This document shows, one piece after another, positions 14,921 to 38,599 of a stretch of DNA of 64,000 bases. The notes beneath the pieces are model-generated. The model saw only the letters and a list, made by a program, of their open reading frames with translations. It was not told where the DNA came from and searched no databases. How positions within the stretch are numbered: the stretch's first letter is position 1; each line of letters opens with the position of its first letter. This DNA is from Ehretia macrophylla (taxonomy: Eukaryota; Streptophyta; Magnoliopsida; Boraginales; Ehretiaceae), in NCBI GenBank assembly GCA_037974665.1, contig CM075772.1:35007052-35071051 (forward strand). The letters run 5' to 3'. The translations under genes and the position numbers were made by a program.

Positions 14921-15073
14921 AAAGCATAGGAGAAAGAAAGACTCCACCTTATTAGCAGAGCGGCATACCAAAAAAAAAGGAATCCAGAACCAGCATCTCC
15001 TCCCACACCAAGGAAAGTCTCCTAGTCTAAACTAGGAAGAGATCATAGCTTTGAAGGGCTCTCAGAATCTGGC
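14921..15073. other. Mitochondrial spacer up to the C1 insertion
   Basis: Short spacer between the atp8 leader and the C1 insertion point. The frame of the 221-codon ORF on the far side (38599-37939) would end within about ten codons here if the two sides are joined. Confidence 0.45.
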
Positions 15074-17771
15074 TGTAACACCCCGATCCCTCTCAAGACC
15101 GGAAGTTCTATTAATCAATCTAATCGCAACCCAATTCCAAACCCGTACATAATATTTAGGGAAAAACGGACGGAGTCTCTCATGTTTCTAGGCAAAATAC
15201 AAAACCTGTAACAGCATATAAGTGGACCAGCACAGTGTCCAACCATACAAACACCTCAAGGCCATCCGAGCCTTGTTTCTCAACAAATAAACCCAACAAT
15301 TATATATATACATTTCCAGTTTAAAAGGTAACCTATCTCTTTTCATCCTTGACAAGAACATTCATGCTAGGCAATTAAACTATACTAATCCATTGCATAA
15401 AATAGACTATCATACCATTCAAATTCTTTTCCTTTGGACAATACAAACATGTAATGAAGTTAAACTATACTAACTGAATACATAAACTAGCTTATCATTC
15501 TACCTCAATTACCTAATTAAATTTAAATTACAATCTTCTAATATTAAATACATACATTACATAAAAGCATACATCTTTACAACTTCGACAACTCAAGCCA
15601 CATAGGCATGCAAGACAACTCTTCAAGCACGAACTTTCACGAAATCACGAACTTTCCAGCCAACATGGCAATTTCCTGAAATGTGGTGGTGAGGAGTGAT
15701 TAATCTCAACACGTATACTCAGTGAGGGCGAGACAGGTATCGAGGTGGAGAGAAAGAAAGTCGTGCAATGCAAATAGGGTAGATAAGCAATATAACTGAC
15801 AAGTAAGCAATCAATATAGACAATCAATACAATAAACACTTAATAAAAGAATTAACACAACCATTCAAAGCTATACTACACTCTGAAGGCTATGGTTCAC
15901 TCAAACGAGCAATGTACCGATCATGATTTCGATGACTTTAACGATGACGCACCGGCTCACCCACCTTATAACTTCCGTTAGAGTACTCCGAACATACTCT
16001 GTCAATTCTACGACCCAAAACTCCCTGGGCGGCAACCCAAGCGAGAAAGGGAATAGGACACGGAGCTAGAGCAACCAACACTGGCAACCCGAGGCTACCC
16101 AGAGAGGCTTCTCTCTCACGCGCCTGACACAATGCAATGCAATACAAGGAATATAACAATAATCGAGCAAGGCACTGAAATGCAAGTTAGTAACAACATG
16201 CGATACAATAAACATTTACAATCTATAAAGTAACAAGAACAACACTAACAAACATTATCAACAATTGATATACAATGCAATCATAACCAACTTTAACAAG
16301 CATAACAAACAACATTAAGCATTATATAGGCATTACACTATGAAAAACAAACAAAATCGCAAAATCTCCTCAACTTTTAAAACGTTACTACTTTCAAACG
16401 AGCCACGAGTTTTGGAATCCAACTTCACCAATCCTCCTAGGTCACCATAAGGCACGTCTAAAGACCCCGAAACCCTACTTAACCCTAGAATTCACGCAAA
16501 GCCTTATTTTCCCATTTGCTCGTTTGAACTACCGCTACCCTAACCAAACACCTAACCAATGTCATAACCACACCAAAAGTGCTTCCATGGCTTCCTAAGA
16601 CAATGCCATCACGCAAATCGAGGAAACGCTAAACTCGACCTAAACGATCCTGACTTGTACCAAGGCATTTTTCCTCATTTTTCCATTACACAATCCAAAC
16701 AAATCATGCCTTTAGGAATTCTAGCATATCTAGCATCTTTTCACATCAACAGAACGCATAACGAAGCAACTTCATCGAAACGGGGGTTTACTATTGATAA
16801 TTTACTATTCAATTATCAATTTAAATTTTAATTTCGATATTCAATAGCAGAAAATGTTAAAAAGCTATAAATACATGTTCTACAGTTGCTATGGAACATT
16901 TTTCAAGCATCAAAATGAATTAAATAACAATCTACGGCTAAAATCCAAAAATTAAAGTTTAAAAACAATTATTTCAAATGCGCAAATAACGAAGAAACCC
17001 TCACCTTAGACGCTTCTAGATGCTAGGAAAACCACGCTGGATGCCCCGGAAACCACCCCGTGCAAGCTCACGCGATGATTTGAAGATTGGATGTTGAAAA
17101 TCTTTTTTTTTTCTTCTCCTCTATGTTTCGGCCTGCCTTTGTTTTTATTTTCAGCTTTTGTTTCTTTTATTTTTTCTATTTCATGCTATTTTAAAAGATG
17201 ACACAAGTTCAATGGTCAAGCCTTGGTCAAACTACTTAAAAATTGGTCAAATAGGCTTATTTTAGTGATTTTAAAGGTAAAACAACCAACACAAATCGAT
17301 TTTTAGTTAAATACAACTAAAATACCAAAATTAAAATACTAAATACTAGTTTTCACTATTTGCTGAGGACTAGAAATCATTTCCTAACTATCGCTCTCGA
17401 TATGCTATGCACTTTGCGACAATAAAAGAATAACAATTAAATCTCAAAGAATTTAAGAAAATATAATTTTTGAAAAGTAACATAGTTCAAAATTTACTCC
17501 GGCTCGGAGCTACTTTTCATTTTATTGAAAATCGAGCATTAAGGTGCAAGAAAAATAAAACCGATTAACATAAATATGAAAGTAGTGGATATTCCGTTAA
17601 AATAATTAACTCAAGTATTATTTAATTACTTCTAAAAGAAATATGAAAATAATGCTAGAAATGAATGTTTAACTTAAAAATAAACACGAAATTCAATGCT
17701 AACATTTAAGATGTCACTTAATTAATTGCAATTAAATGCCATTAAATGCATGCCGGGTTCGGGTTATCACA
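15074..17771 (-). mobile_element. 3' LTR of non-autonomous element C1 (family C)
   Basis: 2698 bp from TGTAACACCCCG to GGGTTATCACA (plus strand), next to a polypurine tract. It inserted in the mitochondrial block. The splice-donor-like motif is at 17000-17008. The C1 5' LTR, once two nested insertions and their target duplications are removed, adds up to 2697 bp, which confirms the pairing. The first 260 bp differ from that copy by roughly 6-7 percent, so C1 is one of the older insertions. The outer flanks are ctggc and tttgc, only 3 of 5 matching. Confidence 0.9.
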
Positions 17772-17807
17772 TCCTTCACCCCTTAAAACAATTGCGTCCT
17801 CGCAATT
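17772..17807 (-). promoter_or_regulatory. Polypurine tract and preceding hairpin (C1)
   Basis: The sense strand reads AATTGCG, loop AGGA, CGCAATT, then GTTTTAAGGGGTGAAGGA directly before the LTR. The tract primes plus-strand DNA synthesis in LTR elements. The hairpin is conserved in other families here with compensatory changes. Confidence 0.75.
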
Positions 17808-19613
17808 CTTCTTCCAAGAGAACTCTGCATCCACTGACATTCAACTCTGACTAATCTTCATCAGCTGCTGAGCAAGTATATTAATCAAGATAACCAATAG
17901 GGAAGTTTAAGAAGAAATTCCAAGTAGTAATGCCGAATATAGGCTCAAATGTAGATACCGCACATGAATCCCGTTAACACGAATACCGAAGAAGAATAAA
18001 ATTCCAACCAAAAGCGCCGAGATAACACCAATAAAGACTAAAGCAAAGATATTGTAGATAAAAACACATCACGTATTAATGATAAGAGGAATACCGAATG
18101 AATACCCCATACACGAATCTCTAGTAGAAGTTCAACTATTATCGCCCGAGAATACCCAAGCAAGAAGCCAAATAAAGGCTCAAACAAAGGTTCCATCCAG
18201 AGGTCCAAAGAAGTACTCGCTGGTCATGAATTTCATAGAAGAATTCCTTTTTAAGAGTGCTGAAGAAAATACTAAGAAACCCAATCAAATATACTTCAAA
18301 AGTTCCAAAGAAGCCTTCCAAATAATAACCCCATAGGATAACCAATTAGATCCCGAGTATCGCTATCAAATGCTAAGAAGAATGTCAACAAAAATAGCAA
18401 AGAAAATATAATGTGCCCAATAAGACAACCATGTTGAATAACAAACATAGTTTCCCAGCTAGATCAAAACCTAAGGAAAAAAAAAATACCGAACTGGTGC
18501 ACAATATACAAAACAAAACTCCGAGGCCTCTTCACTTTTGCCAAGTGAGGACAACTTACCACCAAGAAAGCCCAAGTTATCCCACAGCATACCGTAAGCA
18601 ATATGAGATAATAAGTCTGATGAAATTCCAATTACCAACCAACTGAGGGATGCCGAAGAAAATACCCGGACAATGCTCCAGTAAAAAAGTACCAAGAATT
18701 GCCCAATAAGTAATACTAAATAAATGGCCACTAAGAATCCTAGAGAATGCCATTGAAGAATTTCCATTAAGGAATGCCGGTAGCACTCCAATAAAGACCG
18801 AGACACATATACCATAAATAATACCATGCAGTAAGTCCGATTGAAAACCCAATAACCAAGTCCACCGAGAAGTGCCAACAAAAGTTCCAAAGAATACCCA
18901 ATAAGAAAGCCAAAGAATGCTCCAGAGAACAACCAAATAGAATTCTCAAAAGAAGGCTACTCTTTCACAACTGTTAAGCATAGAGGAGGACCCTAGAGAC
19001 TCGCCAATAACCGAGCTCCAAAAGCAAATACCAACTCCCAATTCAAGGCTAGTTAAATGCCATTCATTTCCTGCTAATCCATACACCTTGAAAGGCCAGC
19101 TGTGAACCACTTTCTTCAGGGGAGGAAGAAGTCTTCCTTACCATTCAACAGGACATGTATGAATGCCAAGATATCACATTTATACACATGCCTTAAACTA
19201 TTATGCAAGCAAGTTTACAAAAGAGTTTATAAAACAATTTATTCAACAAAGTCACTAAAGCACGACAATCAAGTCAAGCACAACATAATCAATTCAAATC
19301 ACGGCATAACCAATTCAAGACATTTCAATACACACATTACAAGCAATACTTCAAGCAAATAACAATTCACGAGGTCGATTCGATTCACGATGCTAATTCA
19401 ATAGGTCAATTCAATGCACAACTAGACATTTTACTTCACTTAGCACACACTTAACACATAACACATAACTATATCACATAGGAGCACACATTCAGGTCAA
19501 GACACACAATCTCACATACAAGCATACACTTTCAAGACACACTTAACAAGCACACATTCAAGGATCACTACCCACCAGACCGAGGACCCTGTCCTGGCTT
19601 ATGAGCTAGACAA

Positions 19614-19627
19614 GGTCTGATACCTCC
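19614..19627 (-). promoter_or_regulatory. Degenerate primer binding site of C1
   Basis: The plus strand has tctgatacctcc where the intact sites have ctctgataccacc, so at least two substitutions have occurred. It directly abuts the 5' LTR at 19628. Confidence 0.75.
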
Positions 19628-19891
19628 TGTAACACCCCTATCCTTCTCGAGACCGGGAGTTCTATCAATCAATCTAATCGCAACCCAATTCCAAACCCGA
19701 GCAAAATTTTTAGGGAAAGACAGACGGAGTCTGCCCTGTTTCTCGGCAAAACGCAAAACCTGTAACAGCATATAAGTGGACCAGCACCGTGTCCAACCAT
19801 ACAAACACCTCAAGGCCATCCGAGCCTTGTTTCTCAACAAATAAACACAACAATTATATATATACATTTCTAGTTTAAAAGGTAACCTATC
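19628..19891 (-). mobile_element. C1 5' LTR, segment 1
   Basis: First 264 bp (plus order) of the C1 5' LTR, matching 15074 onward. Interrupted after ctatc (19887-19891) by element F; that pentamer is repeated at 27570-27574. Confidence 0.9.
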
Positions 19892-22337
19892 TGTGAAACC
19901 CCACTTTATTGCTTATCTCGATTTACGTGCTTTGTCTCGTTTTGCGTGCATATGACCTGTTTATGTGCTATAGGACCTAGAAAGTTATAATTTTGATGTC
20001 AATACTTCTAATACGTGCTAAATGTGCATTCATGAAATTTTCATCAAAAACGGGATCAGAAATTTTATCGTCGATTTTCAGTGAATAGTGTTTTCGAAAC
20101 ACGTCCGCTATAATTTTGAAACTGGTCTTTTTAACCCTTCTAGACCTAGTCCACGGACTTTAATAGACCTGTGTTTGATGAAAATGGTTTTAAAATCGGC
20201 TTAAGAATTTATTAGGGTTTTTACACCGACTTTTGCGAAAATCGAGTTTTAAGCCGACTCGGGTGGAATTCTTTGAATGTAAAACTTCTTGTCACCTAAA
20301 AATAATCCACTTAAGATATTTTGGGGGTTGCATAATTATTTTTAACTTGGTGAGCACTAAAATGCAATTAAAGTCATTAAAAATACAAAAATACCTATTA
20401 AAACTAACTTTGACTTTGCATTTTTTTAATTGACCAAGCTTTTTATTATATAATGTCATCAACACACACTCACACAACACAAAACACACTCCACAAACAC
20501 ACACATGGCCGAGAGAAAGAGGAGAGAAAAAGAAAGAGAATTTCAAAGCTTTTCAATCCAATTTTTCAAAGAAAAACCTAGTTTTTGTCCGTGAAACTTC
20601 GCACCGAGTTGGATTCTGCTTGTTGGGCACGCATAGCACGGATTCCTAGGCTTATCTCGCATATAAGGTGAGAGAAAAATTCTAGATCTCAAAATGTCAT
20701 TTTTGTGTTTTTGCGTATAAATGAAGATTGAACCGTTAGAATTGTAATCTGATGTTAGATTATTGCTCCTTGCATGCTAGGGATCATTATATACTAATAC
20801 TACGAATTTCTGTCGGATGTAGCATAATTTTTATTTTCCGGGTATTTAATTTTGATTAAAATGTTCAAAGTTGAATTAAATGAGTTGTGTTGATCGAAAT
20901 CGATTGCCGTCGATTTCTAAATACTTGATAATTATGTGTTAGCGCTGTTGTAATGCCGAATTTTCGATTACATTGTTCGTGTGAAAATCCGGAAAATCCA
21001 GCCAAGATATCTTAGGGTTTTAGGGTTATCGGGCATGATTTGGAGGTGTTATGGTGGATTTCCGAGAGGGCTAATGTAGTAGGTTGAATGGGTGAGTGAT
21101 AGGAACTGATTTGGCAATGTTTGGATTAGTAGATTGTAAGTTATGAATTTTAGAAGTTTAGGTTGTCATTCTTTAATTTCTTGAACGATGCCTTAGATGG
21201 TTGGGTAGTGTTCGAGTGATGAATGGTGAGTCGTTGTTGAGTAATTTAGGGTTTAATTATGTATATTATGCATGTCCGGTTAGATGGCCTACTTTGTCAT
21301 CTAACTACGTTGTTTGTTGTTTAATTTAATATTGATGTTATATTGATGTTATTGATTGATTATTATTGAATGCGGGAATCGGGCACTCTTGTTGCTGATC
21401 TCCCAATTGATTGATTGATTTATGCTTGCATGATGATTGATGAATATGGAGTCTTGGTATGTGTGTGCCACCTCTCGGGCAGCGTCGGGCTGTCGGGTTG
21501 ATAACGGCATGACTGCCATAGGCTACCCCCAGCTCGCATGACGGAGATGTCATGGAGGGAAGGGGCTAGTGAGGTACCTCGGGTGCGTGAGTAATGGAGA
21601 GTTATAAGAAGAACGGTTGAGATCGTGATGGCGTTTGGAGCTACACCAAATAGAGTATCCTTATTGATTGGTTATATAGTTATGTGATGATAGCTTTATT
21701 TATGTTATTATTGTTGTTGTGTGTTTACTTGCTCAAAGGACTAAATCCAAGGAGCATAGTGAATACTGTCGAGATCTATCGGATCCTCACTGGGCTTATT
21801 TATATAAGCTCACTCTCTATTAATGCATGCTTACAGGTGTTGCAGAGCCGGATTACGGGTATGTGCCTCCTGAAGAGGAGAATGTGGAAAATGTGCTTTA
21901 CGTGGACGAGTCATATGTTCCCGAGTCTTATCCATGATTATATGTTGTTTAATGTCATGTATATTAGCTTAATAGACTTTTATATGCTTTGTGGTTCTTA
22001 TTGTAATAGATGTTGGAAGATGATGATCCAAATGGTGTTAACTTAGTGGCTTTCTTTTGTCTACGGTTAAGTTGTAAATATGTCTCAACTTATTTTTGAA
22101 ATGTATGATAAGGTTGAGGTATTGTATGTTATGTTGGAACGGAGGCGTATAACGAGGATGGTTTATTGTATATTATGATTGTGTTGTATGTTGTTGTTTA
22201 AATTAAGGAGTTGCTGGATGTTTAATGTTATTAATGAGGTTGGTTTGGAACCTCGGTGTCCTATTTACTGTCGTTATACTGCCGAAATCCCGTTGCGTCC
22301 TGACTGATTGTAAGAGGGGTCGAGTTGGGGCGTGACA
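19892..22337 (+). mobile_element. F 5' LTR
   Basis: TGTGAAACCCC...GGGGCGTGACA. Promoter: TTGACC at about 20431 and TATTATATAATG at 20443-20454. A purine-rich tract follows (20508-20541). Splice-donor-like TAAGGTGAG is at 20664-20672. The open frames at 20233, 20292, 21338 and 21684 recur in the other LTR only because the LTRs are duplicates. Confidence 0.92.
20443..20454 (+). promoter_or_regulatory. TATA box of the F LTR
   Basis: TATTATATAATG follows a single TTGACC and precedes the CA-rich and GA-rich probable transcript start region. The second copy lies at about 25675-25686 in the 3' LTR. Confidence 0.6.
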
Positions 22338-22344
22338 GTTTAAG

Positions 22345-22356
22345 TGGTATCAGAGC
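22345..22356 (+). promoter_or_regulatory. Primer binding site of F
   Basis: TGGTATCAGAGC, initiator tRNA-Met type, 7 nt after the LTR end. Confidence 0.92.
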
Positions 22357-22439
22357 GCATGTTAGCTGTCAGCCGGGGTATCCTCGGAATGTGGGTAGTG
22401 GTCTAAGCATGCAAGTACGTATTAAGTGAAAGAAAAGTG

Positions 22440-22900
22440 AAACAATTGTTAATATGTTTATGTGATTAATTTACTTATGTGTCTAACTTTCTATGTGACC
22501 AGTATGCCTTGTGTGTTAAGTGAACTAATGTGGTCAATATGTTTTATGTGATAACGTGTTATACGTACTCAATGTGTTGTAATTAATGTGCATTATGTGA
22601 TTAATGTGTATTATGTGACAATTGTGTTTTATGTGATTTTGTGCCTTGTGTGAAGTTAGTTGTTTATGTGCTTTTAATTGTTTATAACTAGCTTATGTGA
22701 AACAACGTGCTTTAGGTGGTCAATATACTTTAAGTGACCAATGTGAGTTACGTGATCAACTTGTCTTATGTGAAGTTTGTTGCTTATGTGACTTTAATTG
22801 TTTATAACTTACTTCTGTTATATAACCTGTTTATGTGATGTTGGCTTCTTATATGTTGAATTGTGTGTTATGTGATAATGTTGCATTGTATGATAATTGC
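22440..22900 (+). repeat. Degenerate TG-rich tandem repeats in F
   Basis: About 20 irregular units of roughly 20-25 bp with a core like TTATGTGATTAATGTG. Units differ by substitutions and small indels. A similar but weaker array (GTGTGCTTGTTAAGTGTG-like) occupies the same place after the primer site in C elements. Confidence 0.7.
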
Positions 22901-25087
22901 GCATTACGTTGTACTTGTCTTTCATATGATATAGTTGCATACATGTTTTAACTCGTGAGTGACCTTTTAATGTCTAGGGTGGTTGTAAGAATTTTCGGAA
23001 ATAGAGATAGGCCATGATTTTGAATTATTATTATTCTAGAAGTTTATCAGTTAGATTTTAATTGTTATGTTTATGGATTTTAGTTTCGGCTTAGTGGAAT
23101 GATCTTGATGTTCCTTTAGCGAGAATGAAGTTGTTCGAGGAAAATAGCAATGTATCTTGATGATTATAATTACTTTTGTTGCCATGTTTAACTTGTTATT
23201 ACTTGGAGATGAATCATAAGTTGAGGTTTCCGTGAGGCTGTGATTAGACACTTTTGGAGTCTCAACTCAGATTATACTTTCTTGAGGTTATTTTAGAATG
23301 AATTTATTTGAGGAATTAGTGATGTATATTTGTGAATGGAATGAAGTGTGGTATAACATGTGAATATTTCTACTATTTGGGATTGCTATATTATTAATGG
23401 ATATTTTGGAGTTTTGATCTTTAAACCTTGGAGACAATTGGAGTGATTCCTGACTAAAGTTACTTTATTCGAGGATGTAATTGTTGGGAGATAGAATTAT
23501 TTGAGGAAATAAGAATGCATTTTGGTGACTGAACATTTACTTGCCTACATCAAGCTTTTGAGTTCTAGGTGGTATGACTTTCTAAATTGTTGATTGAGGA
23601 TTCACTAGTGTTATAATGGGTTAGTATGAATCTGTATTGTGTTATCAGATTTTGGAGTCCTCATTAGTTAATCTGGTTGGGTAATCAGTGATTTATCTTG
23701 TTTAGTGATTGGTCTAGTACGGAATGTAAAATTTTGGAGTGATTTATCTTGTTTGGTGATTGTTATGACTCCTTAGGTTCTCTAGATCTCCTTAGTGTCT
23801 TGTTTTGGAGGAAGATAGATTGTAGGATTTGATTTGTTGGTGTTTAAGTGTGTAGGTGGGACACCCTTCTTGTACTTCATAATTCTATCAGTCTTATTAT
23901 TATCTTTTACTCTATTCTCACTTATTTGAGAGAGAGTTACACTTTTCTAGCATATCAATTGTTTCTTGAAAGTTTTGCTTATTGGATTAATGGATCCTAT
24001 ACTCATTTGACATTGTTTCCATTCTTAACATTCATATTTGCTTCTTATAGCAATGTCGCTTATTGGAGTTAAGGTTTGAGACTTCTATATTTCATTCTAT
24101 ATCTCTAGCCATTCGTTTCAATATTTCATTTCATCCTATTACTATTCATTTGAAAGTAATTTTTCCTTTGGTATACCATTTTACTTATTCGAATTTCACT
24201 TGCTTGATGTACTCCCTACCTAAGTACATCATTGTCATTCTTGTTGATCCTTGTTAATCCTATTGTTTCATTATTAAATCTTGAGTCATTACTTTGCTTG
24301 TAATTGCTCATTCAATATACTCGGCATTGTCCTTCTTATTAATACTTCTTTGGTTATTGCGTGCTAAGATACTCATTATCTTGACACTCATATTTTATAT
24401 TGAATTAATCATCTCTTATCTCTTAATTTTATTTCACCTCAAGTACAACTTACTTGTTGGTTCTTTGAACAATCATCGAGAATTGAAATATCTACTTGTT
24501 CAGGAATTTTTGTTCAACATACTCAGCACTGTTTTGACTCGCCATTATCCTTTGTTCGTACTTATTTAACTAAAAGGTGCTGAGACATTTCTTATCTTAG
24601 TTATCATGCTTTCTTATTAAACTATTAGTCTCTTGATTCTCTAACTTGTTTGACATCTTGCACCTTGATTGTTGGCTCAAATATGACTTTCCATATTCTT
24701 AATTCCTTGTAAATTTCATAAGAGCCATATTCTGACCAATGTCACTTTTGAGATATTTCCTTGATCAGTAATCATTCATGTTATCGTGATTGAGTTTTTA
24801 AACCCTCGGGGTGTTCATAGAGCTCTTTAGTGTAGTAGGGGATGATTGATAATTAGTGGTGTCATGCTAAGACTTTGGAGTTGTGATTCATTTCATATGC
24901 AATATGATATTAGGTGGGAGAGAATTATGAATTGAAGATTGTCTTGGAATTATGATCATCAACTTGCAGTCAACAGAGGTTGTTCTTTTGAGGTCTTTGG
25001 TTAGGTGTCATCCTAGGAGATAAATAAGAACTAAGAGAAGTATTATTAAGTGTAACGATTGAGGATTTAATTGTCTATCAGTTCGAG

Positions 25088-25123
25088 AATTGCGCGGACG
25101 CAATTGTTTTAAGGAGGGGAGAA
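25088..25123 (+). promoter_or_regulatory. Hairpin and polypurine tract of F
   Basis: AATTGCG, loop CGGA, CGCAATT, then GTTTTAAGGAGGGGAGAA, immediately followed by the 3' LTR. Confidence 0.8.
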
Positions 25124-27569
25124 TGTGAAACCCCACTTTCTTGCTTATCTCGATTTACGTGCTTTGTCTCGTTTTGCGTGCATATGACCTGTTTATGTGC
25201 TATAGGACCTAGAAAGTTATAATTTTGATGTCAATACTTCTAATACGTGCTAAATGTGCATTCATGAAATTTTCATCAAAAACGGGATCAGAAATTTTAT
25301 CGTCGATTTTCAGTGAATAGTGTTTTCGAAACACGTCCGCTATAATTTTGAAACTGGTCTTTTTAACCCTTCTAGACCTAGTCCACGGACTTTAATAGAC
25401 CTGTGTTTGATGAAAATGGTTTTAAAATCGGCTTAAGAATTTATTAGGGTTTTTACACCGACTTTTGCGAAAATCGAGTTTTAAGCCGACTCGGGTGGAA
25501 TTCTTTGAATGTAAAACTTCTTGTCACCTAAAAATAATCCACTTAAGATATTTTGGGGGTTGCATAATTATTTTTAACTTGGTGAGCACTAAAATGCAAT
25601 TAAAGTCATTAAAAACACAAAAATACCTATTAAAACTAACTTTGACTTTGCATTTTTTTAATTGACCAAGCTTTTTATTATATAATGTCATCAACACACA
25701 CTCACACAACACAAAACACACTCCACAAACACACACATGGCCGAGAGAAAGAGGAGAGAAAAAGAAAGAGAATTTCAAAGCTTTTCAATCCAATTTTTCA
25801 AAGAAAAACCTAGTTTTTGTCCGTGAAACTTCGCACCGAGTTGGATTCCGCTTGTTGGGCACGCATAGCACGCATTCCTAGGCTTATATCGCATCTAAGG
25901 TGAGAGAAAAATTCTAGATCTCAAAATGTCATTTTTGTGTTTTTGCGTATAAATGAAGATTGAACCGTTAGAATTGTAATCTGATGTTAGATTATTGCTC
26001 CTTGCATGCTAGGGATCATTATATACTAATACTACGAATTTCTGTCGGATGTAGCATAATTTTTATTTTTCGGGTATTTAATTTTGATTAAAATGTTCAA
26101 AGTTGAATTAAATGAGTTGTGTTGATCGAAATCGATTGCCGTCGATTTCTAAATACTTGATAATTATGTGTTAGCGCTGCTGTAATGCCGAATTTTCGAT
26201 TACATTGTTCGTGTGAAAATCCGGAAAATCCAGCCAAGATATCTTAGGGTTTTAGGGTTATCGGGCATGATTTGGAGGTGTTATGGTGGATTTCCGAGAG
26301 GGCTAATGTAGTAGGTTGAATGGGTGAGTGATAGGAACTGATTTGGCAATGTTTGGATTAGTAGATTGTAAGTTATGAATTTTAGAAGTTTAGGTTGTCA
26401 TTCTTTAATTTCTTGAACGATGCCTTAGATGGTTGGGTAGTGTTCGAGTGATGAATGGTGAGTCGTTGTTGAGTAATTTAGGGTTTAATTATGTATATTA
26501 TGCATGTCCGGTTAGATGACCTACTTTGTCATCTAACTACGTTGTTTGTTGTTTAATTTAATATTGATGTTATATTGATGTTATTGATTGATTATTATTG
26601 AATGCGGGAATCGGGCACTCTTGTTGCTGATCTCCCAATTGATTGATTGATTTATGCTTGCATGATGATTGATGAATATGGAGTCTTGGTATGTGTGTGC
26701 CACCTCTCGGGCAGCGTCGGGCTGTCGGGTTGATAACGGCATGACTGCCATAGGCTACCCCCAGCTCGCATGACGGAGATGTCATGGAGGGAAGGGGCTA
26801 GTGAGGCACCTCGGGGGCGTGAGTAATGGGGAGTTATAAGAAGAACGGTTGAGATCGTGATGGCGTTTGGAGTTACACCAAATAGAGTATCCTTATTGAT
26901 TGGTTATATAGTTATGTGATGATAGCTTTATTTATGTTATTATTGTTGTTGTGTGTTTACTTGCTCAAAGGACTAAATCCAAGGAGCATAGTGAATCCTG
27001 TCGAGATCTCTCGGATCCTCACTGGGCTTATTTATATAAGCTCACTCTCTATTAATGCATGCTTACAGGTGTTGCAGAGCCGGATTACGGGTATGTGCCT
27101 CCTGAAGAGGAGAATGTGGAAAATGTGCTTTACGTGGACGAGTCATATGTTCCCGAGTCTTATCCATGATTATATGTTGTTTAATGTCATGTATATTAGC
27201 TTAATAGACTTTTATATGCTTTGTGGTTCTTATTGTAATAGATGTTGGAAGATGATGATCCAAATGGTGTTAACTTAGTGGCTTTCTTTTGTCTACGGTT
27301 AAGTTGTAAATATGTCTCAACTTATTTTTGAAATGTATGATAAGGTTGAGGTATTGTATGTTATGTTGGAACGGAGGCGTATAACGAGGATGGTTTATTG
27401 TATATTATGATTGTGTTGTATGTTGTTGTTTGAATTAAGGAGTTGCTGGATGTTTAATGTTATTAATGAGGTTGGTTTGGAACCTCGGTGTCCTATTTAC
27501 TGTCGTTATACTGCCGAAATCCCGTTGCGTCCTGACTGATTGTAAGAGGGGTTGAGTTGGGGCGTGACA
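25124..27569 (+). mobile_element. F 3' LTR
   Basis: 2446 bp, same ends as the 5' copy and differing at about 17 sites. It is followed by the second ctatc target copy and the continuation of the C1 LTR. Confidence 0.92.
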
Positions 27570-27940
27570 CTATCTCTTTTCATCCTTGACAAAAACATTC
27601 ATGCTAGGCAATTAAACTATACTAACCCATTGCATAAAATAGACTATCATACCATTCTAATTCTTTTCCTTTGGACAATACAAACATGCAATGAAGTTAA
27701 ACTATACTAACTAAATACATAAACCAGCTTATCATTCTACCTCAATTACCTAATTAAATTTAAGTTACATTATTCTAATATTAAATACATACATTACATG
27801 AAAGCATACATCTTTACAACTTCAACAACTCAAGCCACATAGGCACGCAAGACAACTCTTCAAGCACGAACTTTCACGAAATCACGAACTTTCCAGCCAA
27901 CATAGCAATTTCCTGAAATGTGGTGGTGAGGAGTGAGTAT
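27570..27940 (-). mobile_element. C1 5' LTR, segment 2
   Basis: Continues the LTR after F (matches about 15336-15700 of the 3' LTR) and is cut again after agtat (27936-27940) by TRIM G. Confidence 0.88.
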
Positions 27941-28154
27941 TGTAACGACCCGACTCCCCACGCAAAGTCTCACCGAGCCGCCACTACCCAGGAATTGTCC
28001 GCTATTGGCAGTCCCTGGCCCGCAGGCATAGGTCCCTCACGGTTTTTTCCTCTTGAGAATCTCTTCTCAAAAGGCGCCTGGGCTGATATAAGAGACAAGC
28101 TCTTATATCGAGCTCTCTCACTTCCAAGACTTCCGATGTGGGATTGTGTAACCA
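27941..28154 (-). mobile_element. TRIM G 3' LTR
   Basis: 214 bp from TGTAACGACCC to GTGTAACCA. It differs from the right copy by a 12-bp deletion near the start and by substitutions. It contains a perfect 10-bp inverted repeat, GATATAAGAG/CTCTTATATC, with a 5-nt loop, placing a TATA-like core on each strand. The plus-strand frame covering it (27920-28171) is incidental. Confidence 0.85.
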
Positions 28155-28227
28155 GATTCCACCCCCCTTAAGAGGCCCCGCGCCCTCGCGGGCACGAGCA
28201 CAAGGGAAGACTGGCTCTGATACCACC
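28155..28227 (-). mobile_element. TRIM G interior with polypurine tract and primer site
   Basis: 73 bp. In sense: primer site TGGTATCAGAGC, a GC-rich hairpin GTGCCC-GCGA-GGGCGC with a GNRA-type loop, then AAGGGGGGTGGA as polypurine tract. It cannot code for anything, as expected for a TRIM of about 0.5 kb. Confidence 0.8.
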
Positions 28228-30987
28228 TGTGACACCCCGATCCCTCTCGAGACCGGGAGTTCTAACAATCAATTTATTCACAACCCAAATCCAAACCCGG
28301 GCATAATTTTCAGGGAAAACGGACGGAGTCTCGCTTGTTTCTAGGCGAGATGTAAAACATGCGACAGCATATAAGTGAACCAAAACCATGTCCAAACATT
28401 GAACCACCTCAAGGCCATCTGAGCCTTCGTTCACAACAAGAAAATCCCAAGTAAATATACATTCAAGCTTAGCAATTAAACTACACCAACCTATTTCATA
28501 AGCTAGACTATCATACATTTCTATCTCTTTTCCTTTGTCATCACAAATATACATTGAAGTTAAGCTACATTAACTAAATGCATAATCTAATAAAACTTAA
28601 ATTACATCCCCTTTAACATTAAATACATTTAATACATAAAAACATACAACTTTACAACTTTGACAACTCAAGTCACATAGGCACGCAGGACAACTCTTCA
28701 AGCACTGACTTTCACAAAAACATGAACTTTCCAGCTAACATGGTATTTCCTGAAATGTGGTACATAACACGTATACTCAGTGAGGGCGAGACATATATCG
28801 AATTGGAGAGAAAGAAAGTCGTGCAATGCAAATAAGACATTTAAGCAATATAACTGATAAATAAGCAACCAAGACAAACAATCAATACAATAAGCAATTA
28901 TTGAAAGCATTAACACAACCATTCAAAGCTATACCACACTCTGAAGGCTATGGTTCACTCTTACGAGCAATATACCATTTCACGAGCGATACATCAATCT
29001 CGAGCTTGATGTTGACAACGATGACAATAAGCGCGCATCCACCTTATAACACTAGTTTGGAATACCCCGGAAGTATCCATCAATCTACAACCCAAATCTC
29101 CTTGGGAGGCAACCCAAGCGAGAAAAGGGAATAGCAGCGGAGCTAGAGCAACCAACACTGGCAACCCGAGGCTACCCAGAGAGGCCCATCACTCAAGCGC
29201 GAGATACTATGCAATGCAAGACTTGATACAAGGCAATAAATGAGCGATAGCACAACAATACAAACTAGTGACAACAAACGATATAGCAAGCAATCACAAC
29301 CAATACTAACATTCAACTAACTTTTCAAGCATAACAAGCAATAATAAGCCACAATAACACCAATTAAACAAGTATATCAAGCAACCCTAAGCATTCTATA
29401 GGCATAATATCAAGATAACAAGTAAAATCACAAATCGGCCCCAACTATCAAAACACTACCATTTCCAAACGAGCCACGAGTTCTGGAAACCGACTTCGCC
29501 AATTCTCCTAGGTCACCATAAGGCACGTCTAAGGACCCCGAAATCCTACTTTACACTAGAATTCACGCAAAGTCCCGATTTTCCCCTTTGCTCGTTTGAA
29601 CTACAATTATACCAACCAAACACCCAACCAACGCCATAATTGCACCAAAATTGCTTCCATGGCCTCCCGAAACAATGCCAACACGTAAAACGAGAAAATG
29701 CCAAACTCAACCTAAACGACCCCGACTTTCACTAAGATGTTTTTCTCCATTTTTCCATTACACATTCCAATTAAACCACACATTTAGGCATTCTAGCATA
29801 TCTAGCATCTTCCTACATCAACAAAATGCGAAACCGAGCAACTCCATAGAAGCGGGGCTTTACTATTCACACTTTTCTATTCATTAATCAATTTAAATTG
29901 CAATTTCGATTTTCAACCGCAGAAAATGCTAAAAAACTATAAATACATGTTCTACAATCAACAAGGAACATTCTTTAAGCAACAAAATGATTAAAACAAC
30001 AATCTACGCATAAGTTCTAAAAATTAAAGTTTAGACATACATTTTTCAAATGCGCAAATAACGATGAAACCCTCACCTTAGACGCTCCTAGACGCTAGGA
30101 AAACCTTGTAGGACGCCTCGGAAACCACCCCGTGCAAGCTCACGCGAAGAATCGAAGATTTGAATTTGAAATCTTTTTTTTTCTTCTCCTCCATGTTCGG
30201 CTAGCCCTTGTTCTTTTTTCTGATTTTGTGTTGTTTTGCTTTCTATTTTATGCTTATATAAAAAGATGACAAAGGTCAAATGGTCAAGGCTTGGTCAACC
30301 CACTTAAAAATTGGTCAAATAAGCTTGTTTTATGTGTTTTAAAGCTAAAATAATTAACATAAATCCAATTCTAGTTAAATACAACTTAAAACACTAAAAT
30401 TAAATCACTAAATACTAGTTTTCACTATTTGTTGAGGACTAGAATTCATTTCCTAACTTTCGCTCTCGAAATGCTATGCACGTTGCGACGACAAAGAAGT
30501 AACAATTAAATCTCAAAGAATCTAAGAAATATATCATTTTTTGACAGCATCAAAGTTTAAAATTTACTCTGGCTCGGAGCTACTTTCCTCATTTATTTGA
30601 AAACCGAGTGATTTTAATGCAAGACAACCAAAACCGATTATTAAAATAACCAAAACAATCAAGGTAATCAATATTCATCTAAATTAATTAATTTAACCAT
30701 TTCTAGAACATTTTAAAGAATTATGAAGTCAATATTAAGATACAAATGAAAGTTAATATAACACGTAGTCAAATACAATTAAACACTAACATTTAAGGTA
30801 ACATTTAATTAATCACAAGAAAAGAATTTCAATTACTATAATTATTAGAAATAGGTAATAATTTTTTAATTATTCAATACACAACTACGAAATGTTTCCA
30901 AGAGAAATATTAAAATAGTGCAAATTGGTTGATTTAACTAATTAAACATTTAATCAAATGCAGTCAAGTGCTATTAAATGCATGCCT
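28228..30987 (-). mobile_element. C2 LTR-A (last about 17 bp missing at the LTR-LTR junction)
   Basis: Family C LTR starting TGTGACACCCCG at the first primer site. It stops after GCATGCC plus one extra T, lacking GGGTTCGGGTTATCACA, and joins LTR-B at once. It differs from LTR-B by only a few percent. Splice-donor-like motif at 30072-30080. Confidence 0.85.
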
Positions 30988-33779
30988 TGTAACACCCCAA
31001 TCCTTCTCGAGACCGGGAGTTCTAACAATCAATCTATTCACAACCCAAACCAAAACCCGGGCATAATTTTCAAGGAAAACGGACGGAGTCTCGCTTGTTT
31101 CTAGGCGAAATGTAAAACCTGCGACAGCATATAAGTGGACCAATATATGTCCAAACATTCAACCACCTCAAGGCCATCCGAGCCTTGGTTCACAACAAGC
31201 AAATCACAAGTAAATATACATTCAAGCTTAGCAATTAAACTACACCAACCTATTTCATAAGCTAGACTATCATACCTTTCTATCTCTTTTCCTTTGTCAT
31301 TACAAATATACATTGAAGTTAAGCTACATTAACTAAATGCATAATCTAATAAAACTTAAATTACATCCCCTTTAACATTAAATACATATAATACATAAAA
31401 ACATACAACTTTACAACTTTGACAACTCAAGTCACATAGGCACGCAGGACAACTCTTCAAGCACGGACTTTCACGAAATCACGAACTTTCCAGCTAACAT
31501 GGCATTTCCTGAAATGTGGTGGTGAGGAGTGAGTATACACAACACGTATACTCAGTGAGGGCGAGACAGATATCGAATTGGAGAGAAAGAAAGTCGTGCA
31601 ATGCAAATAAGACAGTTAAGCAATATAACTGATAAATAAGCAACCAAGACAAACAATCAATACAATAAGCAATTATTGAAAGCATTAACACAACCATTCA
31701 AAGCTATACCACACTCTGAAGGCTATGGTTCACTCTTACGAGCAATATACCATTTCACGAGCGATACATCAATCTCGAGCTTGATGTTGACAACGATGAC
31801 AATAAGCGCGCATCCACCTTATAACACCAGTTTGGAATACCCCGGAAGTATCCATCAATCTACAACCCAAATCTCCTTGGGAGGCAACCCAAGCGAGAAA
31901 AGGGAATAGCAGCGGAGCTAGAGCAACCAACACTGGCAACCCGAGTCTACCTAGAGAGGCCCATCACTCACGCGCGAGACACTATGCAATACAAGACTCG
32001 ATACAAGGCAATAAACGAGCGATAGCACAACAATACAAACTAGTGACAACAAACGAGATAACAAGCAATCACAATCAATAATAGCATTCAACTAACTTTT
32101 CAAGCATAACAAGCAATAATAAGCAACAATAACACCAATTAAACAAGTATATCAAGCAACCCTAAGCATTCTATAGGCATAATATCAAGATAACAAGCAA
32201 AATCACAAATCGGCCCCAACTATCAAAACACTACCATTTCCAAACGAGCCACGAGTTCTGGAAACCGACTTCGCCAATCCTTCTAGGTCACCATAAGGCA
32301 CGTCTAAGGACCCCGAAACCCTACTTTACCCTAGAATTCACGCAAAGTCTCGATTTTCCCCTTTGCTCGTTTGAACTACAACTATACCAACCAAACACCC
32401 AACCAACGCCATAATCGCACCAAAAGTGCTTCCATGGCCTCCCGAAACAATGCCAACACGTAAAATGAGAAAATGCCAAACTCAACCTAAACAACCCTGA
32501 CTTTCACTAAGCCTTTTTTCTCCGTTTTTCCATTACACATTCCAATTAAACCACACATTTAGGCATTCTAGCATATCTAGCATCTTCCTAGATCAACAGA
32601 ACGCGAAACGGAGCAACTTCATCGAAACGGGGGTTTACTATTCACAATTTACTATTCATTAATCAATTTAAATTGCAATTTCGATTTTCAACCGCAGAAA
32701 ATGCTAAAAAGCTATAAATACATGTTCTACAATCAACAAGGAACATTCTTTAAGCAACAAAAAGATTAAAACAACAATCTATGCATAAGTTCTAAAAATT
32801 AAAGTTTAGACATACATTTTTCAAATGCGCAAATAACGATAAAACCCTCACCTTAGACGCTCCTAGACACTAGGAAAACCTTGTAGGACGCCTCGGAAAC
32901 CACCCTGTGCAAGCTCAAGCGAAGAATCGAAGATTTGAATTTGAAATCTTTTTTTTTCTTCTCCTCCATGTTCGGCCAGCCCTTGTTCTTTTTTTTCTGA
33001 ATTTGTGTTGTTTTGCTTTCTATTTTATGCTTATATAAAAAGATGACAAAGGTCAAATGGTCAAGGCTTGGTCAACCCACTTAAAAATTGGTCAAATAAG
33101 CTTGTTTTATGTGTTTTAAAGCTAAAATAATTAACATAAATCCAATTCTAGTTAAATACAACTTAAAACACTAAAATTAAATCACTAAATACTAGTTTTC
33201 ACTATTTGTTGAGGACTAGAATTCATTTCCTAACTTTCGCTCTCGAAATGCTATGCATATTGCGACGACAAAGAAGTAACAATTAAATCTTAAAGAATCT
33301 AAGAAATATATCATTTTTTGAAAGCATCATAGTTAAAATTTACTCCGGCTCGGAGCTACTTTCCTCATTTATTTGAAAACCGAGTGATTTTAATGCAAGA
33401 CAACCAAAACCGATTATTAAAATAACCAAAACAATCAAGGTAATCAATATTCATCTAAATTAATTAATTTAACCATTTCTAGAACATTTTAAAGAATTAT
33501 GAAGTCAATATTAAGATACAAATGAAAGTTAATATAACACGTAGTCAAATACAATTAAACACTAACATTTAAGGTAACACTTAATTAATCACAAGAAAAG
33601 AATTTCAATTACTATAATTATTAGAAATAGGTAATAATCTTTTAATTATTCAATACACAACTACGAAATGCTTCCAAGAGAAATATTAAAATAGTGCAAA
33701 TTGGTTGATTTAACTAATTAAACATTTAATCAAATGCAGTCAAGTGCTATTAAATGCATGCCGGGTTCGGGTTATCACA
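30988..33779 (-). mobile_element. C2 LTR-B
   Basis: 2792 bp with both ends intact, TGTAACACCCC to GGTTATCACA, followed by polypurine tract and interior. The 77-codon frame at 31676-31909 is identical to the one at 28901-29134, which reflects LTR duplication and not a gene. Confidence 0.88.
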
Positions 33780-35639
33780 TCCTTCCCCCCTTAAAACAAT
33801 TGCGTCCTCGCAATTCTTCTTCCAATAGAACTCAGCATCATCTGAAATCCAATTCTGACTAATCTTCATTAGCTACTGAACAAGTATTTCATCAAGATGA
33901 CCAATAGGAAAGTTCAAGTAGAAATGCCAAGCGGTAACACCAAATAAAGGCTCAAAGGTAGATACCGTACAAGAATCCCGTTGACACGAATACCGAAGAA
34001 GAATAAATTCCAACCAGAAACGCCGAGATAATACCAATAAAGACTATAGCAAAGATACTGTAGATGTCATTAATACCACACAATAGCGACAAGAAGAATA
34101 CCCCACGCACGAATCTCCAATAGAAGTCTAACTTTTACTGCCCGAGAATCCCCAAGCAAAAAGCCAAATAAAGGCCCAATCAAGGGTTCCATCTAGAGGT
34201 CCAAAGAATTACCCCGCTGGTCATGAATTTCATAGAAGAATTCCCTGTTAAGAGTGCTGAAGAAAAATACTAAGAACCCAATCAAATATATTTCAAAGGT
34301 CCAAAGAAGCCTTCCAAATAAAAACCCCATGGAACAACCAATTAGATTCCGAGTTTTACTATCAAATGCTGAGAGGGATGACAAAGAAAATAACAGAGAA
34401 AATATAATGTGCCCAATAAGACAACCAAGTTGAATAACAAACATAGCTTCCCAGATGGATGAAAACTCCAAGGATAAACACCGAACTGGTGAACAATATA
34501 CCGAAACCAAACTCTGAGGCCTCTTCACTGTTTACCAAGTGAGAACTTCATACAACCTTGCTAATAAGGAAAATACCAATAGAACCCCCAATAAGAATTT
34601 CAAAGAATACCATAAGTAGTATTATACAATAAGTCTGATAGGAACTCCAAGTACCAAACCTACTAAGGAACACTGAAGAAGATATCCGAAACAATGCTCC
34701 AATAAGAAAGTAGCCAAGTTTGCCCAATAAGTAAATACTAAATAATTGGCCACTGAGAATTTCATAAAATACCATTGAAGAATTTCCAATCAGGAATATC
34801 AGTATCACACCATTAAAGACCGAGACACATATGCCATAGATAATACCATACAGTAAGTCCGATTGAGATCCCAATAGCCAAGTCCACCGAGAAGTGCCAA
34901 CAAAAGATTCCAAAAAATACCCAATAAGAAAACCAAATAATGCTCTCCAATGAACAGCCAAATAAAACCTTAAAAGAAAACTACTCTTTCTCAGCTGTTA
35001 AGCACAGAAGAGGACCATACAGATTCGCCAATAACCGAGCTCCAAAAGCAAACACCAATTCCCAAATATAGGCTAGTCAAATGCCATTCATTTCCTACCA
35101 ATCCATACACTTTGAGAGGCTAGCTGTGAACCACTTTCTTCAGGGGAGGAAGAGGACTTATTTACCATTTCCATAGGACATGTATGAATGCCAATAAATC
35201 ACAATTATACACATGCCTTAAACTACTATGCAAGCAAGTTTACAAAAGAGTTTATTCAACAAAGTCACTCAAGCACGGCAATCAAGTCAAGCACAACATA
35301 ATCAATTCAAATCACGGCATAGCTAACTCAAGACATTCTATACACACATTGCAAGTAATACTTCAAACAAATAACAATTCACAAGGTTAATTCAATTCAC
35401 GATGCCAATTCAATAAGTCAATTCGATAGACAACTAGACATTTCACCTTACTTAGCACACAATTAACACATAACACATAACTATATCACATAGGAGCACA
35501 CATTCAAGTCAAGACACACAATCTCACATACAAGCATACACTTTCAAGACACACTTAACAAGCACACATTCAAGGATCACTACCCACCAGACCGAGGACC
35601 CTGTCCCGGCTTATGAGCTAAACACGCTCTGATACCACC
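33780..35639 (-). mobile_element. Interior of C2, non-autonomous
   Basis: 1860 bp, the same layout and nearly the same length as the C1 interior (1856 bp): polypurine tract and hairpin (33798-33815), T-rich zone, TG-rich zone, leader hairpin (35592-35609), primer site. Stop-poor minus frames at 34193-34528 and 34548-34961 correspond to those of C1 but are shifted by indels. Confidence 0.85.
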
Positions 35640-35866
35640 TGTAACGACCCGACTCCCCACGTGGAGCCCACGCAGAGTCTCACCGAGCCGCCACTACCCA
35701 GGAATTGTCCGCTATTGGCAGTCCCTGGCCCGCAGGCACAGGTCCCTCACGGTTTTGTCCTCTCGAGAATCTCTTCTCAAAAGGCGCCTGGGCTGATATA
35801 AGAGACAAGCTCTTATATCCAGCTCTCTCACTTCCAAGACTTCCGATGTGGGATTATGTTAACACA
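35640..35866 (-). mobile_element. TRIM G 5' LTR
   Basis: 227 bp from TGTAACGACC to TTAACACA. It lies directly against the primer site that belongs to the C2 interior, where a C LTR would be expected. It carries the same 10-bp inverted repeat around the TATA-like core. Confidence 0.85.
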
Positions 35867-37938
35867 AGTATACTCAACACGTATTCTCAGTGAGGGCGAG
35901 ACAGATATCGAGGTGGAGAGAAAGAAAGTCGTGCAATGCAAATAGGGCAGATAAGCAATATAACTGACAAGTAAGCATTCAATATAAACAATCAATACAA
36001 TAAACAATTAATAAAAGCATTAACACAATCATTCAAAGCTATACCACACTCTGAAGGATATGGTTCACTCATACGAGCAATGTACCGATCATGATTTCGA
36101 TGACTTTAACGATGACGTGCTGGCTCACCTACCTTATAACTTCCGTTAGAGTACTCTGGACATACTCTGTCAATTCTACGACCCAAAACTCCCTGGGCGG
36201 CAACCCAAGCGGAAAAGGGAATAGGACACGGAGCTAGAGCAACCAACACTGGCAACCCGAGGCTACCCAGAGAGGCCCGTCACTCATGCGCCTGACACAA
36301 TGCAATGCAATACGAGGAATATAACGATAATCGAGCAAGGCACTGAAATGCAGGTTAGTAACAACATGCGATACAATAAGCATTTACAATCTATAAAGTA
36401 ACAAGAACAACACTAACAAGCATTATCAACAATTGATATACAATGCAATCATAACCAACTTTAACAAGCATAACAAACAACATTAAGCATTATATAGGCA
36501 TTACACTATTAAAAACAAACAAAATCGCAAAATGACCTCAACTTTCAAATCGCTACTACTTTCAAACGAGCCACGAGTTTTGGAAACTGACTTCACCAAT
36601 CCTCCTAGGTCACCATAAGGCACGTCTAAAGACCCCGAAACGCTACTTAATCCTAGAATTCACGCAAAGCCCTGATTTTCCCTTTGCTCATTTGAACTAC
36701 CGCTACCCTCACCAAACACCCAACCAATGCCACAACCACACCAAAAGTGCTTCCATGGCCTCCCGAGACAATGCCATCATGCAAATTGAGGAAACGCTAA
36801 ACTCGACCTAAACGACCCCAACTTGTACCAAGGCATTTTTCCTCATTTTTCCATTACACAATCCAAACAAATCATGCCTTTAGGCATTCTAGCATATCTA
36901 GCATCTTTTCACATGAACAGAACGCATAACGGAGCAACTTCATCGAAACGGGGGTTTACTATTGATAATTTACTATTCAATTATCAATTTTAATTTTAAT
37001 TTCGATATTCAACAACAGAAAATGCTAAAAAGCTATAAATACATGTTCTACAATTGCTATGGAACATTCTTCAAGCATCAAAATGAATTAAATAACAATC
37101 TACGGCTAAAACCCAAAAATTAAAGTTTAAACACAATTATTTCAAATGCGAAAAAAATGATGAAACCCTCACCTTAGACGCTCCTAGACGCTAGGAAAAC
37201 CACGCTGGATGCCTCAGAAACCACCCTGTGCAAGCTCACGCGAAGATTTGAATATTGGATGTTGAAAATCTTTTTTTTTCTTCTCCTCTATGTTTCGGCC
37301 TGCCCTTGTTTTTATTTTCAGCTTTTGTTTCTTTTATTTTTGCTATTTCATGCTATTTTAAAAGATGACACAAGTTCAATGGTCAAGCCTTGGTCAAACT
37401 ACTTAAAAATTGGTCAAATAGGCTTATTTTAGGCATTTTAAAGCTAAAACAACCAACACAAATCTAATTCTAGTTAAATACAACTAAAATATCAAAATTA
37501 AAACACTAAATACTAGTTTTCACTATTTGCTGAGGACTAGAAATCATTTCCTAACTATCGCTCTCGATATGCTATGCACTTTGCGACAATAAAAGAACAA
37601 CAATTAAATCTCAAATAATTTAAGAAAATATAATTTTTGAAAAGTAACATAGTTCAAAATTTACTCTGGCTCGGAGCTACTTTTCATTTTATTGAAAACC
37701 GAGCATTAAGGTGCAAGAAAAATAAAACCGATTAACATAAATATGAAAGTAGTGGATATTCCGTTAAAATAATTAACTCAAGTATTATTTAATTACTTCT
37801 AAAAGAAATATGAAAATAATGCTAGAAATGAATGTTTAACTTAAAAATAAACACGAAATTCAATGCTAACATTTAATATGTCACTTAATTAATTACAATT
37901 AAATGCCATTAAATGCATACCGGGTTTGGGTTATCACA
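35867..37938 (-). mobile_element. C1 5' LTR, segment 3
   Basis: Final 2.07 kb of the LTR, ending GGGTTATCACA at 37938. The three segments minus two 5-bp duplications total 2697 bp against 2698 bp for the 3' LTR. The mitochondrial insert resumes directly after it. Confidence 0.88.
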
Positions 37939-38599
37939 TTTGCCTTGTCCCATTTTCTCTTATCTCTCTCAAATAAGAGAGATAAGTAGATTCAAAAAGC
38001 GCCCTCCCCTGCTGGTAAAAGAGAAATCCTCGAATCTGCTGTCTTCGGGCGAAGACAGCATCACAAGAATACCTGATGACCACTAGAGCCGCCTCGACAT
38101 GCTTTTCGATATGGGCTTGGGTCTGCACATACGAGTCCCGAATTCCCGTATTGTAAGAGAGACCTGCCCAATGAATACCCAAGCGATCATTGAGCTCTTC
38201 TTCACGGGTGTGGTCATCGAATAAAGAAGGGTGTAATTCTGGAATCAGCGGGGGGTGATTTACCTTCGCTTCCGAGCCTTTATTCCAACTTTCATTTGAT
38301 CCAGAAGTGACATTCCAAATCAAAGTTGGCACTCCTAAAAATGCCAAAATCTTTTCGGAAATAAAGAAACGAAATAGGGTAGAGAAAAAGAAAAGGAGGA
38401 TATAAATGCTGAATAAGAGAAATTGACTCCTTTTTCTTTTCCAAAGTAGAATGAAAGTGAGAAAAACTATGAAAAATGGAAATATGAATTCTGGCGTGGT
38501 TATTACAGAGGTTCCTTCTGATCCTAGAAAACCCTCAAAAAAAACTGCTACGGAACTACCTAGCAGGGATAAAATGACTCTTTTTAGTCGGGATTTCAT
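37934..38599 (-). CDS. Mitochondrial-type membrane ORF, 3' end cut by C1
   Basis: 221 codons from the ATG at 38599. Three hydrophobic segments (about residues 8-25, 36-55 and 59-80), one Lys/Arg-rich break (WKRKRS), then a charged domain of about 140 residues with EKHVEAALVVIR and FYQQGRALFEST. I do not recognise the family. The last codons and stop lie in the C1 LTR (ATG-TGA at the border), so the native end is lost. Joining the two mitochondrial flanks puts a stop about eight codons further on, so the native protein was probably near 230 residues. Unlike its neighbours it has no internal stop. It lies upstream of atp8 on the same strand, with a shared leader motif about 190 bp before it. 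Confidence 0.6.
   Translation of the reverse strand: MKSRLKRVILSLLGSSVAVFFEGFLGSEGTSVITTPEFIFPFFIVFLTFILLWKRKRSQFLLFSIYILLFFFSTLFRFFISEKILAFLGVPTLIWNVTSGSNESWNKGSEAKVNHPPLIPELHPSLFDDHTREEELNDRLGIHWAGLSYNTGIRDSYVQTQAHIEKHVEAALVVIRYSCDAVFARRQQIRGFLFYQQGRALFESTYLSYLREIRENGTRQM

Follow-up and report, generated by a model that had tools for sequence, protein, structure and literature searches.

A composite of a TRIM and a second LTR element family, joined at the primer site, recurs in the genome of Ehretia macrophylla

The DNA analyzed here, called the window below, comprises 64,000 nt of Ehretia macrophylla and lies at C9:35007052-35071051 of its own genome (1.58 Gb, 20 contigs). It contains a composite of two families of long terminal repeat (LTR) elements, termed G and C, which are joined at their primer sites and enclosed by one outer 5-bp duplication. 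G is a terminal-repeat retrotransposon in miniature (TRIM). A first-pass annotation had described two head-to-tail C LTRs and one C interior inside TRIM G, and this layout was found at the mapped coordinates (Table 1). It had regarded the region as a single fossil left by a two-LTR circle of C. Mixed G/C composites were found to be real and recurrent, which is more telling than the fossil proposed, and the joined G-C unit probably entered the chromosome as one.

Table 1. Positions of the G/C composite and of its host element in the window
Feature	Position	Strand	Remark
Target duplication AGTAT, left copy	27936..27940	.	5 bp
G (TRIM) LTR1, 3' LTR in element sense	27941..28154	-	Alignment to LTR2: 6/214 differ, plus gaps
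G interior with polypurine core TTAAGGGGGG	28155..28213	-	
Left joint, G interior to C LTR: complement of the primer binding site + CC spacer	28214..28227	-	Joint recurs in genome
C LTR-A; 16-17 bp absent from its end, the start of U3 in element sense	28228..30986	-	
Single T between C LTRs, read as last base of nested target TGCC(G/T)	30987..30987	.	Suggested by comparison with the nested loci on C9 and C19
Full-length C LTR-B; probable near LTR of nested C element	30988..33779	-	
C interior	33780..35625	-	Without open frame of at least 150 amino acids
Right joint, C interior to G LTR: complement of the primer binding site + CC spacer	35626..35639	-	Joint recurs in genome
G LTR2, 5' LTR in element sense	35640..35866	-	
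Target duplication AGTAT, right copy	35867..35871	.	5 bp
Host element D; LTR2 carries the composite	15074..37938	-	LTR1 15074-17771; LTR2 pieces 19628-19891, 27570-27940, 35872-37938

On the plus strand the order is AGTAT, G LTR1, G interior, primer binding site (PBS) with CC, C LTR-A, a single T, C LTR-B, C interior, PBS with CC, G LTR2 and AGTAT; the element sense of both G and C is the minus strand. The 14-bp site reported earlier at both borders was confirmed and consists of the PBS complement followed by CC. It is at the primer site that G and C adjoin each other, and the composite is no simple nest. As the annotation had stated, the outer G LTRs with their perfect AGTAT look like one normal insertion. 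The duplication is supported by five LTR copies within the window, LTR-B included, in which the target site is unbroken.

G has the properties of a TRIM, with LTRs of 214 and 227 bp, an interior plus PBS of 73 bp, no open frame and a 5-bp target duplication (AGTAT twice). Its PBS presumably matches the initiator-Met tRNA. G and C have in common the LTR tips TGTGNTAAC...GTTACA, the polypurine core TTAAGGGGGG and the primer site. When exact matches of at least 10 bp were compared between the two, the longest was 17 bp and located at the PBS, while the longest elsewhere was 13 bp. The shared sequence of roughly 17 bp claimed earlier was therefore present, but it includes the CC spacer of the C family; the native spacer of G is TT, and native sharing is smaller. 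No open frame of at least 150 amino acids was found in 27941-35866, and G and C therefore both look non-autonomous. A scan of the window against Rfam gave no match at gathering scores, and one G motif searched in a viral collection gave none either.

Both joints were searched in the genome, G-PBS-C with a query of G interior, primer site and C LTR, and C-PBS-G with a query of C interior, primer site and G LTR. For each, 40 candidates were scored, and the numbers of places are lower bounds that include the window itself. The G-PBS-C joint was reached across at at least 24 places (among 44 rows of matches) and the C-PBS-G joint at at least 12 (among 73 rows). One additional C-PBS-G match, at C5:36.12 Mb, ends 18 bp inside the G LTR. 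Twelve of the 24 G-PBS-C places were examined as loci, and these display the joint by construction; three more (C3, C15, and C17) were examined in pieces, and C7:16.85 Mb was seen via its C-PBS-G joint. Eight places were matched by both queries.

Five of these eight have G outermost, as judged from the spacing of the joints. The spacing is 4332 bp in the C2 composite (duplication ATATC, perfect; G pair differing at 1/227), 4361 bp in C15 (CTCTT/CTCCT, 4/5 alike; 8/230), 4141 bp in C11 (CACAA, perfect; 9/226), and 3924 bp in C16 (GTGAC, perfect; 14/231). It is 7410 bp in the window, with two C LTRs and a perfect AGTAT. By joint spacing the other four composites have one C LTR each, of which only C2 was read through, and the second C LTR of the window therefore looks like an add-on. 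The reverse arrangement was found at C13:6.795 Mb, where C is outermost and a C LTR is followed, in element sense, by G interior, G LTR, and C interior. G alone makes tandem arrays with a period of about 297 bp, and short mixed G/C tandems were found at C7:16.85 Mb and C18:74.27 Mb.

The partners were found to re-assort between composites. A tree of C LTRs was made from 26 sequences, leaving out L023, L026, and L027, in which the C LTR part was short or broken, and the partly covered C3, C15, and C17. The C LTRs of the eight non-window composites were scattered over several parts of this tree, several of them next to free copies, with some supports below 0.95. The C11 and C16 composites have sister C LTRs (96.6%) and G LTRs that are only 72% alike, while the window and C2 composites have G LTRs that are 94-96% alike and C LTRs that are about 80% alike. 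Because G and C partners re-assort, the joining has, judged from these comparisons and a tree in which some supports are below 0.95, occurred more than once. By the same comparison, simple copying of a single composite could not have given both C11 and C16 without replacement of one G part.

Some of the places carry further rearrangements. At C18:74.27 Mb (L023, L051) truncated C and G units form the short mixed tandem, with a period of about 801 bp. At C1:114.12 Mb (L019, L031) there is a composite remnant, in which the G LTR and interior, the primer site, and a complete C LTR are present but unrelated flank follows in place of a C interior. The G-C joints at C3:68.887 Mb (L032) and C17:6.24 Mb (L036) have the same left flank, which lies inside a C interior. 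A composite was therefore copied or duplicated together with its surroundings.

The spacer bases between PBS and LTR differ between the families. Native C-to-C joints had CC in all nine loci at hand, and native G-to-G joints had TT in 18/18 readable cases from a sample of 20, two of which lacked an exact primer site. At the mixed joints both spacers were found. The G-to-C joint has CC in the window, C1, C2, C19:18.098, C11, C5:61.46, C16, and C18:74.27, TT in C13, C16:75.58, C3, C15, and C17, and CT in C19:18.104. The C-to-G joint has CC in the window, C2, C15, C11, and C16, TT in C2:71.94, C18:30.85, and C7:16.85, CT in C13 and C7:0.09, and CTT in C18:74.27. The G interiors of C16 and C18 end in GACCC.

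The joint between the two C LTRs of the window sits 16 bp from the end of LTR-A. The earlier description of 17 bp lost plus an extra T was right in placing a loss at the end of LTR-A, but 16 missing bp with a change of the next base from G to T fits equally well. A genome search for further C LTR-LTR joints, suggested beforehand by the first-pass annotation, was made with a 201-bp query across the joint and gave 41 matches (best 40 of 3330 candidates scored). Among these, five matches beyond the window itself start well before the joint. One of them, at C5:62.87 Mb, has unrelated flank at this place. The other four are LTR-LTR joints, and all of them are nested insertions with perfect duplications and, beyond the inserted element, the remaining part of the LTR that was hit. 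Two of these, at C9:40.23 Mb (TGCCG twice) and C19:40.47 Mb (TGTCA twice), lie at the same LTR position as the LTR-A joint and have kept the 16-bp remainder; the others are at C2:10.72 Mb (CCCCG) and C7:25.98 Mb (CCCGG). At the joint the window reads TGCC T, and C9:40.23 Mb reads TGCC G.

Because the C9 and C19 loci were hit by nested insertions at the identical LTR position, the LTR-LTR joint of the window has an ordinary explanation. These two loci came from a query built on the window joint, and alone they prove no hot spot. LTR-B is by this comparison probably, if not provably, the near LTR of a C element nested in LTR-A.

LTR-A and LTR-B were found to be 96.9% identical over 2757 aligned bases. 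They differ at 86/2757 positions (3.1%), compared with 134/2699 (5.0%) for the LTR pair of the host element D, 6/214 (2.8%) for the G pair, and 17/2446 (0.7%) for a further element of the window, E. The D pair is more diverged than the C pair (p = 0.0006). Changes private to one LTR were unevenly distributed, with 51 in LTR-A and 20 in LTR-B when F, D1, and D2 were used as outgroups (p = 0.0003). The ratio was 42:20 (p = 0.007) after removal of a cluster of nine changes in 53 bp, and 48:27 (p = 0.02) and 48:16 (p = 0.00008) with other outgroup choices. The control pair D1:D2 gave 62:43, and with other outgroups 60:38 (p = 0.03) and 72:49 (p = 0.045). An older LTR-A and a younger LTR-B would weakly fit a later insertion of LTR-B, as birth from one cDNA (complementary DNA) predicts even private changes.

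In the identity table of LTR copies, LTR-B was equally near to the free copy L006 (95.8%) and to LTR-A (95.9%). Sites with states shared with other copies numbered 12/86 for A/B and 16/134 for the D control with three outgroups, and 23/86 and 50/134 with ten. The divergence profile along the LTR was no different between A/B and D1/D2 (p = 0.20). The cluster in LTR-A (29824-29876; nine private changes in 53 bp) has a probability of about 0.0002 by random placement and may represent local conversion or clustered mutation. At 28751-28770, also in LTR-A, 16 bp of LTR-B are missing at the LTR position that corresponds to the insertion position of the composite in D LTR2, possibly by chance.

The reading that we favor, and consider moderately probable in full, is that G and C cDNAs were joined at the PBS and integrated via the G LTR ends, and that a nested C insertion and the loss of its second LTR came later. 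G and C cDNAs would anneal at the shared primer site during second-strand transfer, and the product would be a two-family circle containing a single LTR from each family. If this circle opened at the G LTR, it would integrate through the G LTR ends as G-C-G; if it opened at the C LTR, C-G-C would result, and both orders were seen. In the window copy, a further C element would have entered the composite's C LTR after integration, at a point 16 bp from its end. The second LTR of this element would then have been lost by recombination between the two C interiors, together with the 16-bp remainder and the second small duplication, which would leave the C LTRs in contact. Second-strand transfer is described as joining cDNA ends by annealing at the PBS, with alternative end joining in animal systems, and as yielding one-LTR circles (PMC12786077, in excerpt). 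The PBS as the meeting point of G and C is in agreement with such annealing (PMC12786077, in excerpt).

Several observations weigh against this reading. The window lacks everything expected on the far side of the proposed nested element, namely a second LTR, a second duplication, and the 16-bp remainder. The reading therefore has to assume that recombination between two C interiors deleted them, and no trace of such a deletion was found. The divergences of the G pair and the C pair give no order of events, and the 51:20 unevenness between LTR-A and LTR-B is not significantly beyond the 62:43 of the D control (p = 0.11). LTR-A and LTR-B are sisters in the tree (support 0.998), as a common birth would also give. 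Finally, plain strand transfer should make the spacer follow the LTR, so that the C-to-G joint would carry TT, but the window, C2, C15, C11, and C16 carry CC there, and conversion in the annealed overlap must therefore be added. Mismatch repair in this overlap, which would span the primer site and the LTR tip, would yield the observed mixture of spacers.

The same observations bear on other explanations. A TRIM G already resident in the chromosome may have captured C cDNA by primer-site annealing without integrase, as Tf1 does in fission yeast, with a nested C insertion following later. Integrase-independent insertion of Tf1 at sequences resembling the PBS and the polypurine tract (PPT) has been reported (PMC12786077, in excerpt). 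A single crossover should produce one joint with CC and one with TT, and the spacers of C15, TT and then CC, are what one crossover beyond the spacer would leave. CC at both joints, as in the window, C2, C11, and C16, does not result from one exchange unless conversion is invoked. Capture moreover needs a resident G at each composite site and a mirror event for the C-outer order at C13, and at C2, where the G pair differs at only one of 227 positions, little time was available between any two steps. We regard capture by a resident G as rather unlikely. The contact between the C LTRs could alternatively have arisen before integration, if G and C cDNAs were joined at the PBS and end joining within that molecule linked the two C LTR ends. 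LTR-A and LTR-B would then be of equal age, with no nesting. Their sister position in the tree, a difference (3.1%) that is, within error, the same as between the G LTRs (2.8%), and a small loss at one LTR end, typical of end joining (PMC9324142, in excerpt), are consistent with this. The joint, however, lies exactly where ordinary nested insertions occurred in two other loci, private changes are uneven, LTR-B is as near to L006 as to LTR-A, and the four other LTR-LTR joints among the scored matches are of a different, nested kind. This makes end joining of the C LTRs unlikely.

The first-pass annotation proposed that a two-LTR circle of C had undergone a single crossover with a resident TRIM G at its primer site, which would explain the observed order in one step. 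Such circles form in plants (PMC9324142, PMC10959353, both in excerpt), and the sister position of the two LTRs is what they would give. Several observations speak against this explanation. The joint coincides with the position of nested insertions on C9 and C19, four other G-outer composites have a single C LTR by spacing, the window has CC at both joints, which needs spacer conversion, private changes are uneven, and composites recur at other sites with target duplications of their own. The circle is thus an unlikely origin of the window composite, with only a slim chance of being correct. That the composite is an artefact of assembly is scarcely credible. The region of the window is repeat-dense, but the two PBS joints are found at other sites too, which have target duplications of their own, and no breakpoint falls at a long identical repeat.

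By its title, a soybean study cited in PMC5668417 reports LTR swapping between autonomous and non-autonomous elements. Like the G/C composite, such swapping is an exchange between different element families, but the composite adds a whole unit with its own LTR. Complex LTR elements have been attributed to template switching, with a proposed switch between R regions of related partners (Sabot and Schulman, 2007; PMC1950507). They resemble the composite in having two elements per insertion, one outer duplication, and like outer LTRs (here AGTAT and G LTRs differing at 6/214), but the composite has unlike LTRs and a joint at the PBS, and either family is found outermost. No R-region exchange with a chimeric inner LTR is seen; the composite joint is at the PBS and spacer, and the inner LTR is pure C. 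Tandemly arrayed TRIMs (PMC4717578; Cassandra, PMC7215508; both in excerpt) likewise consist of head-to-tail units of LTR and interior with a shared LTR and one outer duplication, but the composite has a unit of another family in the array. In rice and other plants, tandem LTR retrotransposons are single insertions of several units with a 5-bp duplication (PMC11899658, in excerpt). Their units are of the same family and hide the joint, which in the G/C composite can be placed. In integrase-independent insertion of Tf1 at the PBS or PPT (PMC12786077, in excerpt), as in the composite, the PBS is a place where cDNA and element come together, but for the composite a prior resident element is only a possibility. 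End-joined two-LTR circles with small indels are described from carrot (PMC9324142, in excerpt). Plant circles of this kind (also PMC10959353, in excerpt) share with the window the direct LTR-LTR contact and the small loss at one end, but the window joint lies at the position of ordinary nested insertions elsewhere. Mixed TRIM/long-LTR composites joined at the primer site were not described in the titles and abstract openings met in the literature search.

In the rice study it was left open whether tandem LTR-element arrays arise by recombination after insertion or from tandem cDNA before it (PMC11899658, in excerpt). We tentatively propose, as a possibility somewhat short of probable, that plant tandem LTR arrays are built before integration by PBS annealing of cDNAs regardless of family, and that mixed TRIM/long-LTR circles open at either LTR. 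If so, mixed composites would mark, to the base, where array joining happens. Single-family arrays hide the joint since their units are alike, but mixed G/C composites expose it at the primer site with varying partners, and the CC or TT spacer bases report which partner supplied it. Scanning genomes for composites of mixed families, and reading extrachromosomal DNA with long reads, makes the question of array origin testable.

The window contains several other features. A young element, E (19892-27569), lies in the same D LTR2 as the composite; its LTR pair differs at the 17/2446 positions given above, and its duplication is CTATC. The flanks of element D, CTGGC (15069-15073) and TTTGC (37939-37943), are 3/5 alike, its target duplication being decayed or absent. 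A minus-strand open frame of 251 amino acids at 37937-38689 had only a Pfam match below the cut-off and no NCBIfam match. We take this frame to resemble a plant mitochondrial cytochrome c maturation gene, perhaps on inserted mitochondrial DNA. A minus-strand Ty3-type gag-pol frame of 1324 amino acids (1-3972), cut by the window edge, has gag, protease, reverse transcriptase, RNase H, and integrase domains; a protein search with its residues 1-380 gave no match at E up to 1e-30. At 47088-47762 the start of a family LTR (47649) directly follows the gag of another Ty3-type element. Because no primer site lies between them, the LTR is read as inserted in gag. A tandem duplication of 342 bp, 99.7% identical, was found at 56513-57192 within an LTR of the family.

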